From NCBI RefSeq assembly GCF_010894435.1, contig NZ_JAAIXZ010000004.1:482300-546299 (forward strand): DNA of 64,000 nt, written 5' to 3'. The stretch's first letter is position 1, and each line of letters begins with the position of its first letter. The translations under genes and the position numbers were made by a program. The DNA is from Pyxidicoccus trucidator. Its GTDB lineage: Bacteria; Myxococcota; Myxococcia; Myxococcales; Myxococcaceae. The notes beneath the pieces were generated by a model that was given only the letters and a program-made list of their open reading frames with translations, did not search any database and was not told the DNA's origin. Of the stretch, positions 11,613-49,741 are shown in pieces.

Positions 11613-12448
11613 CGCCAGCGATGGAGGGGCCTGCCGAGCCGGAGGGGTGCGCACGGCGAGGACCTGGCGTGGCTGCCGCCATCAGACGCTCCGTCGTGAC
11701 CTGCGCTCCTGCTGGCAGTCCTTCCGTGCTGGAGGCCATGCCACCGACGCAGGGAGCACGTGGCCTCAGGTCGCCCCGATGAGAGCCGCCCATCCGCGAC
11801 AGTCACCCGTAGAGCCCCTGTCGGCCCCATCCTTGGTGCGGGTGAAGTGGAAGGAACCCTCATTCCGCCCCTGGGGTGTCCGGGGTATCGCCTCCCTGGC
11901 GCGGGTGGGGTGGAAGGAACCTTCATTCCATCCCGGGGTTGCCTCCCGTGGGCGGGTCTCCCTGGAGCGGAGTGGAAGGAACCTTCATTCCGCTCCGGGG
12001 CCGGAGGCGGACCTCCCTGGCTCTGGTGGGGTGGAAGGAACCTTCATTCCACCTCGGGGTTGCTCGGGGAGGGGCTCCCTGGTGCGGTGGGTGGAAGGAA
12101 CCTTCATTCCACCCCGGCGTGTCCTGGGAGAGCCTCCCTGGGGCGCGGGTGGGGATGGAAGGAACCTTCATTCCGCCCGCCCGAGGGGCCCGGGGGGCCT
12201 GTGCGTGTGGAGTCGCGTCGCGGAATGGGCGGTGGAGAGCCGAGACCCGATGAGTGATCTGCGCAGTGGCTTCCGGCGTCTGAAGTGGGCCGGGGCGGTG
12301 CACCCAGGGTGCTCGCGAGGCGCGGGCTGGCGGGCTGCCAGGAGGCGAGGTGTTGTCCACTCGTCCCACTGGAGCCGGGCTGTGTGGCTGCCTGTTGCCC
12401 GGAGGTCCGGGGTCGGCTTGAAGGGTGTGCTCATCTTGGGGAGGCTCG
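11613..12448. other. Long intergenic region (836 bp) carrying the palindrome array
   Basis: No convincing gene was found on either strand. Apparent open frames arise because the repeat has few stops; the repeat spacing is not a multiple of three. It holds the six-copy array at 11849-12174. The last part should hold the promoter of the alpha/beta-hydrolase gene at 12449. Confidence 0.7.
11849..12174. repeat. Palindrome array A: six copies of GGAAGGAACCTTCATTCC
   Basis: 18-bp elements start at 11849, 11912, 11974, 12033, 12093 and 12157 (spacing 63, 62, 59, 60, 64). Copies 2-6 are identical; copy 1 has one change (CCC for CCT). The element is an imperfect palindrome, GGAAnGAAnnTTCnTTCC. The spacers are related (CCCCGGGGT near the start, CTCCCTGG and GGGTGGGGT near the end) but much less conserved than the 18-mer. 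Confidence 0.93.
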
Positions 12449-37000: not shown

Positions 37001-37648
37001 ATGCGGATGCTTGGGAACCCGAGGGCCTTCGTGGCCGGAGCGCTGGTGCTCTTCGCCAGCGCGGCCAGCGCGGAAGAGAAGTGGGAGACGGTGGCGGAGA
37101 AGCCGTACCTGGTGAAGGTGCGGCCCCGACCGGGCACCCAGGCCAAGGAAGTGTGGGCGGAAGGCGAGCTCGCCGCCAACGCCTCGGACGTGCAGGCGGT
37201 GCTGACGGACGTGGACTCGTACCGGCAATGGATGCCGTACGTGAAGGAGTCGCGCACCATCAAGGACCTGCCGGACGGCGCGCGGCTGACGTACACGAAG
37301 CTGGGCCTGCCCGTGGTGGCCTCGCGCGACTACGTGTGCCACGTGGTGCAGGAGTCGAAGCTGGCCGCTGACGGCACCGGCGTCTTCGTCCAGCGGTGGT
37401 GGGCGCAGCCGGACGCCATCCCCGAGCGCCGCGACACGGTGCGGCTGCGACTCAACGAGGGGAGCTGGCGCGTGGAGCCTCGCGGCGAGGGGAAGTCCCA
37501 CGCCGTCTACAAGTTCACCGTGGACCCCGCCGGCTCCATCCCCGGCTTCCTGGCCAGCATGGGTCAGAAGGACGGAGTGGTGGACACCTTCCGCGCCGTG
37601 GAGAAGCGCGCCCTGCAGCACGCGGAGGCGCAGCGGAAGAAGAAGTGA
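37001..37648 (+). CDS. SRPBCC/START-like secreted protein
   Basis: 215-aa protein with a cleavable signal peptide (residues 1-23, 'ASAASA|EEK') and a START/polyketide-cyclase-like ligand-binding fold. The pattern 'ANASDVQAVLTDVDSYRQWMPYVKESRTI', 'ASRDYVCHVVQESK', 'WRVEPRGEGKSHAVYKFTVDPAGSIPGFLASM' (fragments) matches periplasmic SRPBCC proteins that bind lipids or hydrophobic ligands. The C-terminus is basic (QRKKK). The ATG at 37001 has GGAAGGA just upstream. It is flanked on both sides by repeat-rich non-coding DNA. Confidence 0.83.
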   Translation: MRMLGNPRAFVAGALVLFASAASAEEKWETVAEKPYLVKVRPRPGTQAKEVWAEGELAANASDVQAVLTDVDSYRQWMPYVKESRTIKDLPDGARLTYTKLGLPVVASRDYVCHVVQESKLAADGTGVFVQRWWAQPDAIPERRDTVRLRLNEGSWRVEPRGEGKSHAVYKFTVDPAGSIPGFLASMGQKDGVVDTFRAVEKRALQHAEAQRKKK

Positions 37649-38133
37649 CGCGTTCCCTTCCTGGGCACGAGGAGCGGGACGACTCGCTCATCTCCAAGAC
37701 GGACTTGAAGCTGTCGCTCCTCACTCCATTGGAGGCTTCCCTCGCTTCGACGAACCAGGCCAGGGCCGCTCCGAGCAGCACGGTGCAGCCGTCCGCCCCC
37801 GGGGCAGGGCTGGAGCGGAAGGAACGTTCGTTCCAGGTTCGCGAGCGGCATGGCGCGCAGGCCCAGGCGCCCCGAGCGGCTGACCGGCAGGGGCGGAAGG
37901 AACGTTCGTTCCAGGGGCGAGCGGCATGGTGAGGGCCCAGGCCCACCGCCGCCGACTGGCAGGAGCGGAAGGAACCTTCGTTCCAGGGGGACGCGCGGCA
38001 TGGAGCGGGGCCAGGCCGCTGACCGGCAAGAGCGGAAGGAACGTTCGTTCCAGGCTCGCGCGTCCCGGTGGGCGCGCTGTACCGGCGCTTCAGGTCGGCC
38101 CCGGACGCGTGCCTTTACCTACCGCGTCTTGAA
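37649..38133. other. Intergenic region (485 bp) with palindrome array B
   Basis: Between the convergent SRPBCC and YwiC-like genes. It holds four palindromes (37817-38051). A stretch near 37752-37790 also resembles the 3' end of the YwiC-like gene (from 38131). No credible gene on either strand. Confidence 0.7.
37817..38051. repeat. Palindrome array B: four copies of GGAAGGAACGTTCGTTCC
   Basis: 18-bp elements start at 37817, 37895, 37967 and 38034 (spacing 78, 72, 67). Three read GGAAGGAACGTTCGTTCC and one (37967) has CCTTCG. Spacers share GCGGCATGG and GACCGGCA-type segments but differ from those of array A at 11.8 kb. The 18-mer is a near-perfect palindrome (16 of 18 positions). Confidence 0.93.
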
Positions 38134-38943
38134 TCAGGCCAGACCCGCGCCAAGCAGAACGGCGGTGGCGCAGCTCGCGGCGGCGAAGCTCCAACCGAGG
38201 CGCTTGAGGTGGCGCGGCGCGGGCAGCAGGGCCAGCGTGCCGAGCGCGACCACCGGAATGGGCAGCAGCGCCACCACGCGCCATGCCGACACGCCCGCGT
38301 TCAGCGCCCAGCCGAGACTGCCCGCGAGCCCTGCACTCGCTACGACGAGGCCCACGACGCGCAACAGCGCGCGGTCCGCGCCTGGCTTGTGGGCTCGGAT
38401 GACGACGTGCACCGTCATCGTGGCCAGCGCGAACCCGAGCGCGAAGGTGCCCCAGAGCGTCAGTGCCGCACCCGGTGCCTGTCCTCCCGCGAGGGCCACC
38501 GGCACGGCCCATGCTCCAAGCGCCAGGGACGCGAGCAGCTCTCCGGAGAGGGTGCGCTCCTGCCGGCCCCAGGTCATCAACAGCACCTCCGCGCCCAGGA
38601 TGCCTGGGAGCGCGAGGTAGGGCCGGGCACCCGGCGCGAGGCTCGGGACGGCGAGCACCAGGGCACAGGCCGCCACGCCCAGCAGCATCCACGTCCAGCG
38701 GAGGGCGACGACGCGGTCCCGCTGGGCGCGGGTGCTCCGGTGTCCGAGCAGGTGGAGCAGGGGCTCATGGACCCAGAAGCAGGCAACCGCCGCCACGGTG
38801 AGCCAGAGGGCCGGGGCGCTCGGGACGGTGACGGCGAGCGCGGTGGCCAGCGGCAACAGGAGCTGGAAGTACGCGCCGTGCTCCCTGGGCAGGAGTGCCT
38901 GGCGGGCGAGGGGGAGCTGCTGGCGGGAGGAGAGGGTCAGCAT
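38134..38943 (-). CDS. YwiC-like integral membrane protein
   Basis: 269-aa polytopic membrane protein (about eight or nine helices) of the YwiC-like family. The family hallmark 'LLPREHGAYFQLLLPLATAL' is at the N-terminus, followed by 'ALWLTVAAVACFWVHEPLLHLLGHR'-type helices. The function is unknown; in Bacillus, ywiC lies near nitrate-respiration genes, and here nrfHA is 1.5 kb away, a loose parallel only. The ATG at 38943 starts just before the conserved region; the frame is open to 39111, but that part is Pro/Arg-rich and unlikely. The C-terminus abuts palindrome array B. Confidence 0.83.
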   Translation of the reverse strand: MLTLSSRQQLPLARQALLPREHGAYFQLLLPLATALAVTVPSAPALWLTVAAVACFWVHEPLLHLLGHRSTRAQRDRVVALRWTWMLLGVAACALVLAVPSLAPGARPYLALPGILGAEVLLMTWGRQERTLSGELLASLALGAWAVPVALAGGQAPGAALTLWGTFALGFALATMTVHVVIRAHKPGADRALLRVVGLVVASAGLAGSLGWALNAGVSAWRVVALLPIPVVALGTLALLPAPRHLKRLGWSFAAASCATAVLLGAGLA

Positions 38944-49035: not shown

Positions 49036-49090
49036 GGCCTCGTTCTACCTCGGGACGCGGGGCCCGGGGGGAACCCGGGCGCGGGTCCGC

Positions 49091-49741
49091 TCAGCCGCGC
49101 CGGGTGGCCTGGGGCACGTCGATGTGCAGCTCGACACGTCGGTTGGCGCTGCGGCCATCCTCGGAGGTGTTGGGCGCCACGGGCTCCGTCTCTCCCTGGC
49201 CCAGCACCACCATCTGCCGCTCCTCCACGCCGCGCCCCTTCAGTACGCGCGCCACCGCGTCCGCGCGCCGCATGGACAGGGACTCGTTGTAGGGCTCCGT
49301 GCCCCGGCTGTCCGTGTGGCCTTCGATGGTGAGGCGGTCATCCGGGTACTTCGCGAGGATGTCGCCAATCTGCGTCAGCTGGGCCACCGCGCCGTCGGTG
49401 AGCACCGCGCTGTCCGTCTCGAAGAGCAGCTCGCTCTGGAGGTTGAGCAGCAGGCCGTGCTCCGTCTTCCGCGTCTCCGCGACCTTCTCCAGCTCCTGCG
49501 CGCGCTTGTCGAGGTAGTTGCCCACGCCGCCGCCCACCGCTGCTCCCGCCGCCGCGCCCACCGCCGCACCCTTCCAGCCGCCGGCAATCGCGCCCGCGCC
49601 CGCGCCCACGATTCCGCCCGCCGCCGCTCCCGTCGCCGTCCGCTTCCCGGGCGTGGCGCAGCCACCCGCGCCGAGCATCGCCGCGGAGAGGAGCACCGCC
49701 GCCGCCTTGTTCCGAACCGTCGCGTTCTTTCGAGTCGTCAC
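49091..49741 (-). CDS. OmpA-family lipoprotein with glycine-zipper segment
   Basis: 216-aa outer-membrane lipoprotein (GGC lipobox, 'AAMLGAGGC'). A glycine-zipper stretch ('GAAAGGIVGAGAGAIAGG', 'GAAVGAAAGAAVGGGVG') is followed by a C-terminal OmpA domain (about residues 100-216) that binds peptidoglycan: 'LLFETDSAVLTDGAVAQL', 'LTIEGHTDSRGTEPYNESLS', 'RRADAVARVLKGRGV', 'GRSANRRVELHI'. The Asp/Arg pair that binds diaminopimelate is present. The start is a GTG at 49741 with AAGGAGG six bases upstream, better than the longer frame from 49792. Confidence 0.9.
   Translation of the reverse strand: MTTRKNATVRNKAAAVLLSAAMLGAGGCATPGKRTATGAAAGGIVGAGAGAIAGGWKGAAVGAAAGAAVGGGVGNYLDKRAQELEKVAETRKTEHGLLLNLQSELLFETDSAVLTDGAVAQLTQIGDILAKYPDDRLTIEGHTDSRGTEPYNESLSMRRADAVARVLKGRGVEERQMVVLGQGETEPVAPNTSEDGRSANRRVELHIDVPQATRRG

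Follow-up and report, generated by a model that had tools for sequence, protein, structure and literature searches.

The DNA analysed here (the window) is a 64,000-nucleotide stretch of Pyxidicoccus trucidator in which a short near-palindrome recurs in tandem between two genes, its sequence kept while the spacers around it diverge. We asked what keeps this core. The initial annotation had proposed array-wise homogenisation. The features at the locus, array B, are as follows.

37001..37648, + strand: left neighbour of array B, START/polyketide-cyclase domain protein (own gene call)
37652..38134, no strand: intergenic interval with array B; in G023, G002, G010 and G020 it bears a TetR gene and measures 1279-1610 bp
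37817..37834, + strand: array B core copy 1, GGAAGGAACGTTCGTTCC
37895..37912, + strand: array B core copy 2, GGAAGGAACGTTCGTTCC
37967..37984, + strand: array B core copy 3, GGAAGGAACCTTCGTTCC, the C10/G14 form
38034..38051, + strand: array B core copy 4, GGAAGGAACGTTCGTTCC
38134..38943, - strand: right neighbour of array B, YwiC-like protein (own gene call)

Array B consists of four copies of an 18-mer (GGAAGGAACSTTCRTTCC) on the + strand, which start at 37817, 37895, 37967 and 38034 and are thus spaced 78, 72 and 67 bp from start to start. It sits in the gap of a convergent gene pair, encoding the START/cyclase-type protein and the YwiC-like protein. We found that GGAAGGAACGTTCGTTCC equals its own reverse complement at 16/18 positions, with the mismatch at 5/14. 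When the window was searched with a 20-mer at up to 3 mismatches, 7 places were recovered, 4 in array B and 3 in a second array, A, as compared with 0 in 100 dinucleotide shuffles. The copies, spacing and near-perfect palindrome of the initial annotation are therefore confirmed, as is its intermediate C10/G14 copy at 37967. By inspection, GGAAGGAACCTTCATTCC, the form in array A, is palindromic at 14/18 positions.

11616..12345, + strand: interval with array A, compared with relatives
11849..12174, + strand: array A, six cores GGAAGGAACCTTCATTCC with starts at 11849, 11912, 11974, 12033, 12093 and 12157; in the first core CCC replaces CCT

Both arrays belong to a repeat that extends over the whole genome (G000, a 12.67-Mb Pyxidicoccus/Myxococcus-like draft). 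The core pattern at up to 1 mismatch gave 95 + 79 matches on the two strands and a reversed control pattern gave 1; near-palindromes can match both strands, so that match counts per genome, which reach up to 226 among the relatives, can exceed the number of distinct sites. In 1.26 Mb of G000, made up of the window, seven tiles of a further contig and stretches surrounding listed sites (mostly picked from about 100 of 294 core matches, which are not all distinct sites), we found 134 places within 3 mismatches, which form 67 groups. Of these, 25 are multi-copy (up to 8); their copies follow one another at 30-135 bp from start to start, mostly 42-78, and in 23/25 all copies lie on a single strand. 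Weighted by array, conservation is largely confined to a stretch of about 20 bp, Y-GGAAGGAAC-S-KTC-R-TTCC-R. A paired-core pattern run against a collection of 84,980 species, which may leave out near relatives of the window genome, returned 23 stretches, only from Pyxidicoccus caerfyrddinensis, P. fallax and Myxococcus sp. RHSTA-1-4. A CRISPR array was rejected, since spacers within an array are 54-81% alike on average and the spacing is uneven both between and within arrays. An analogy to LexA boxes was dropped because the array A form breaks GAAC-N4-GTTC.

The core is kept far better than the DNA between copies. Mean identity was 94.5% for cores and 69.1% for spacers, and the core was the more alike in 13/13 arrays (Wilcoxon p 0.00024); these are 13 of the 16 groups with at least 3 copies, leaving out L028 (mixed strand) and L029 and L030 (units above 120 bp). 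Locating copies by their core favours this contrast; however, a search with the flanks only recovered 44/66 called copies and just 3 extra places without a core (10-11 mismatches off), so that the detection bias looks small. Some decayed copies are present, such as one with 4 mismatches in L030. The claim that the core is kept while spacers diverge thus extends beyond array B.

Cores are also more alike within an array than expected: identical core pairs made up 0.393 of within-array pairs (n=163), whereas over 2000 shuffles the mean was 0.174 and the maximum 0.35. The initial annotation had positions 10 and 14 switching together. This is true of arrays A and B. It fails genome-wide, where all four main combinations occur among copies at most 1 mismatch from the consensus (C/A 16, G/G 59, C/G 15, G/A 22, others 3; by groups C/A 8, G/G 29, C/G 10, G/A 18). 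Concerted evolution by gene conversion, which would hold the core uniform within each array, predicts the within-array likeness. However, homogenisation or recent duplication alone predicts spacers as alike as cores, and the spacers are not homogenised; together with the mixing at positions 10 and 14 this makes gene conversion a very improbable reason for core conservation. The greater likeness of cores within arrays is supported; homogenisation as the cause of core conservation is not. Tandem duplication combined with site-by-site constraint on a putative protein-binding sequence fits both patterns.

The candidate for such a protein, missed in the initial annotation, would explain the core. 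Seven single-copy cores in G000 share homology with one another over roughly 700-850 bp, and the DNA there encodes a protein of about 200 residues with a TetR_N helix-turn-helix. Both proteins scanned matched the TetR_N domain (PF00440) above the cut-off (E 1.1e-11 and 2.7e-9), and all 6 hits of a PDB sequence search were TetR-type regulators (best E 2e-5). No tRNA or tmRNA gene was found in these seven loci. No TetR of this subfamily lies inside the window at E 1e-8 or in the 23 loci L105-L127 at E 1e-15, and in viral contigs none of 21 pattern matches for TetR relatives was confirmed.

To follow the subfamily across species, an alignment of six proteins was searched against 100 relatives at E <= 1e-15, scoring up to 31 first-look candidates per genome. 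Matches occurred in at least 17/100 relatives, with at least 1-19 per positive genome and none in 11/27 genomes of the genus; the counts include split hits, and weaker relatives may be missed. The same 17 genomes carry both the TetR subfamily and at least 4 core matches (17/17 vs 0/83, Fisher 1.5e-19; within the genus 16/16 vs 0/11). The Fisher p ignores shared ancestry and so overstates the case, but within the genus the trait has a patchy distribution. TetR and core copy number correlate among the 17 positive genomes (Spearman 0.76). At the low end, G018 and G025 have 4 core matches each, explained by the pair of perfect palindromes at the two TetR genes of each genome, and seven further genomes have one or two one-mismatch core matches each without a TetR match.

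Three observations concern the TetR loci themselves. At L021, L260, L262 and others the reading frame continues into a long, low-complexity and poorly conserved C-terminal extension. Contig ends in G012, G023 and G000 hold several TetR matches, which suggests near-identical recent duplicates breaking the assemblies. A fragment of a transposase (DDE_3 in Pfam, E 1.7e-8) was seen in L255 of G022, some 300-700 bp upstream of its TetR match.

The core occupies a set place at these genes. In 62/79 TetR loci, 77 of which have upstream DNA (that of L225 and L292 is cut off by contig ends), a near-palindrome precedes the TetR match by 48-110 bp on the same strand, and in 33/62 it is the perfect palindrome GGAAGGAACGTTCCTTCC. 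A further string, TGTCAG...GGTAGA, is present at 38/79 loci, and its start lies 30-31 bp from that of the operator string in 30/31 loci having both. By its geometry this arrangement would be a promoter-like box with a putative autoregulatory operator. In L255, L256 and L281 the core lies farther off, 176-179 bp upstream. The 12 loci with upstream DNA but no core at threshold are L248-L254 (the second subtype of G020), L220, L221, L223, L231 and L237; L220 and L221 have an altered palindrome, GGAAGTAATATTCCTTCC, at the usual operator position. In G023, G010 and G002 the TetR operators mostly have C14 and the array cores listed have A14 or G14; in these genomes the array core is thus not identical to the operator.

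A second pairing of protein and core was found in G020. Four of its eight TetR loci have GGGAGGAGCGCTCCTTTC at the operator position and a fifth has GAAAGGAACGTTCCTTTC. Upstream of the second TetR subtype of this genome a different core, GGAAYGGAGCSTCCGTTCC, was found in tandem units about 94-101 bp long. Searched over the same 100 genomes once it had been seen in G020, this second core gave 126 matches in G020, 55 in G012, 11 in G021 and at most 4 in each other genome. In G012 the TetR fragment L214 (86 residues) is nearest to the second subtype of G020 (67-70% identity), and L192 is nearest to L247, of the first type (72%). G020 and G012, in which the second core is abundant, are thus also the two genomes where the second TetR subtype was seen, G012 being read from two loci. 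G034, of a more distant genus (g9; C14 and C24), has a related core whose centre is altered (GGAAGGAAGCTTCATTCC or GGAAGGAAGCGTCATTCC), with some copies paired; the palindrome upstream of the one distant TetR of G034 differs from its own repeated core.

We then compared the loci of G000 with those of relatives. At locus B, the G000 gap measures about 480-500 bp and holds the four-copy array without a TetR gene, whereas in G023, G002, G010 and G020 the same flanking genes are 1279-1610 bp apart and enclose a TetR gene of the partner family. Among the loci examined, only locus B pairs an array with a TetR gene in relatives. Where G000 has array A, the interval between homologous flanks shrinks to 19 bp in G023, 15 in G002, 9 in G012 (where homology resumes earlier, at 12293) and 7 in G010, all without a core, and G021 has cores on the opposite strand with different spacers. 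The reverse situation occurs at a third place.

49060..49091, no strand: 30-bp gap in G000; P. caerfyrddinensis (L107) has 441 bp here with a 7-copy array of the same core

An orthologous gap can also differ by the gene itself, measuring 1697 bp with TetR in G020 and 7 bp without it in G000. No target-site duplication was evident by eye at five TetR-bearing insertions. Core clusters of relatives, either arrays or TetR operators, were set against syntenic G000 loci chosen for having sites. G000 has a core in 8 of these 20 comparisons; 4 of the 8 positives are locus B and 6 of the 12 negatives are L026. Copy number and presence thus differ between sister species at orthologous loci, a check that the initial annotation had proposed.

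For genomic placement we used 57 of the 67 groups (best copy within 2 mismatches) and removed the seven at TetR promoters, leaving 50; our gene-calling script had missed the seven TetR genes. We found that 38/50 groups are intergenic, though only about 16% of bases lie outside predicted genes. Convergent gaps hold 8/38 intergenic groups, near the background of 16% of intergenic bases and 21% of gaps. In co-directional gaps 11 arrays run with the genes and 9 against, and an analogy to phage 'stoperators' was dropped because array strand does not follow gene direction.

The sites are enriched near the origin, strongly in G002, moderately in G010 and weakly in G022, the three complete or near-complete genomes in which the origin was placed by dnaA. 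By quarters from nearest to farthest, G002 clusters number 31, 7, 4 and 2 (n=44; KS p 1.7e-9), or 26, 7, 3 and 2 without those at TetR genes. G010 gave 18, 8, 6 and 6 (n=38; p 0.003) from a map of 79 exact matches, out of 226 at one mismatch, and G022 gave 6, 7, 2 and 2 (KS p 0.09; 40 of the 47 matches listed). A chance GGAA-N5-TTCCW control in G002 was flat (20, 21, 19, 21), and the sites differ from it (Mann-Whitney p 3e-7); the control comprises 81 merged places from 100 of 104 matches and leaves uneven intergenic DNA along the chromosome uncontrolled for. TetR genes are origin-biased in G002 (5/6) and not in G010 (2/9). Array strand was not significantly linked to the replication fork in G002 (18/29, p 0.26).

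Our best explanation, to which we give a probability of about 0.7, is that the cores are operator-type sites of a lineage-specific, repeatedly duplicated TetR subfamily and that the arrays serve as its binding platforms. One TetR dimer would bind each 18-bp core, and the single site at the TetR promoter would mediate autoregulation, as its geometry suggests. In TetR-rich genomes, units of mostly 40-80 bp would have duplicated locally, turning sites into tandem arrays, and the sites would have spread to many dozens of positions, most of them intergenic; at one or more of these, relatives carry the TetR gene. Selection for protein binding would keep the core while the spacer drifts. Since the arrays are tied neither to promoters nor to gene direction, they would act not as ordinary operators of neighbouring genes but as multivalent platforms, titrating the regulator and keeping it bound to the chromosome, chiefly in the origin half.

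As to what the arrays do, we favour the titrating, chromosome-bound platform, with inert debris a strong rival and an ordinary regulon less likely. In the debris account the TetR gene and its operator duplicate selfishly through intergenic DNA and the gene then decays, leaving arrays that are inert or only titrate. This is a serious competitor, to which we would give somewhat less than even odds: TetR proteins of one species mostly cluster together, the gene comes and goes at orthologous gaps, arrays are gained and lost, and locus B has an array where relatives have TetR. However, decaying debris should not keep its core more alike than its spacer in every one of the arrays compared, the origin bias would be unexpected, and a single locus pairs array with gene. 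If instead the arrays were strong operators of the adjoining genes in a global regulon, a TetR-family partner and sites mostly between genes would follow. We consider this unlikely, since convergent gaps are not avoided, strand preference is absent and array presence varies between relatives with the same neighbours.

Dispersed intergenic palindromes in clusters recall REP/BIME repeats mobilised by a REP-associated tyrosine transposase, but Y1_Tnp matched in 0/27 genomes of the genus vs 5/14 control genomes and the cores track TetR instead, so that we regard this origin as the least credible of all. RNA hairpins or terminators are scarcely more plausible. Short hairpins could form, four 32-nt pieces giving z -0.97 to -2.59; however, two whole units fold like shuffles (z 0.51, 0.04), the region 37600-38200 has no terminator-like site, the window has no Rfam match and the position at TetR promoters is fixed. 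A search of 37600-38200 also returned no promoter/terminator consensus, and nothing scored above the Rfam gathering score in the window, L021, L049 or L051.

The platform reading places the system beside known ones without matching any. The usual TetR/AcrR regulator has one or few operators. The partner subfamily resembles autoregulated TetR/AcrR repressors in its HTH domain and the near-palindromic site just upstream of the gene, but differs in its many putative operators in arrays. Neisserial dRS3/RS arrays are likewise intergenic short inverted repeats with longer, partly similar spacers; their sequence is unrelated to the myxobacterial core, and we know of no TetR partner for them. REP/BIME elements share the clustered extragenic palindromes, whereas a RAYT-type transposase occurs in 0/27 genomes of the genus.

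Closer in kind are two TetR-family proteins which, according to passages of PMC3573117 and PMC6657595, can exert nucleoid-linked control of division through sites scattered over the chromosome. Passages on E. coli SlmA describe SBS sites dispersed over the chromosome and enriched origin-proximally (PMC3573117, PMC4117426), 24-52 per nucleoid (PMC3573117). Judged by site positions only, the myxobacterial sites may be comparable in their candidate TetR-family partner, dispersal and origin-proximal enrichment, but unlike SlmA sites they reach 226 matches, form tandem arrays, go with many paralogues and are patchy between species. For Bacillus RefZ, the corresponding passage gives five near-palindromic chromosomal RBMs, one near oriC, at positions conserved in the genus (PMC6657595). 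The likeness would again be a TetR-family partner with near-palindromic chromosomal motifs, although array positions turn over. As far as site position goes, the myxobacterial sites share with the SlmA/RefZ type many dispersed places outside promoters and an origin-proximal enrichment, but not the single conserved gene with conserved site positions: TetR matches number at least 1-19 per positive genome and array loci turn over.

A bolder version is a fast-evolving chromosome-domain system, in which TetR paralogues would coat the origin half and specificity and arrays would co-evolve by replacement, as a young counterpart of SlmA/RefZ or in a centromere-like, drive-like arms race. The two TetR subtypes, the two core families and the arrayed sites, up to a couple of hundred, would be its basis; we regard it as speculative and probably wrong. 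If the platform reading is true, a repressor and its operator would have multiplied together into dozens to hundreds of arrayed sites within one genus, a natural case in which close relatives without both TetR and arrays serve as controls. The co-evolution of transcription factor specificity with genome-wide sites would become directly testable, as would whether operator arrays can turn into chromosome-organising elements, and a protein partner would be found for what otherwise seem to be orphan palindromes in large myxobacterial genomes. Titles and abstract openings, mostly from outside subscription papers and preprint servers, held no description of these arrays or this TetR family; P. fallax appears in a table of palindrome counts in RepRanger (PMC12306157).

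By our own gene caller, 12/57 site groups lie inside predicted genes, and arrays may also be invading coding sequence. The SufD gene (L019:9931-10110, L117:1541-1960) has one in-frame core in G000 vs four in P. caerfyrddinensis. There the core encodes AEGTFVP or AEGTFIP, and one P. caerfyrddinensis copy encodes AEGMFLP.
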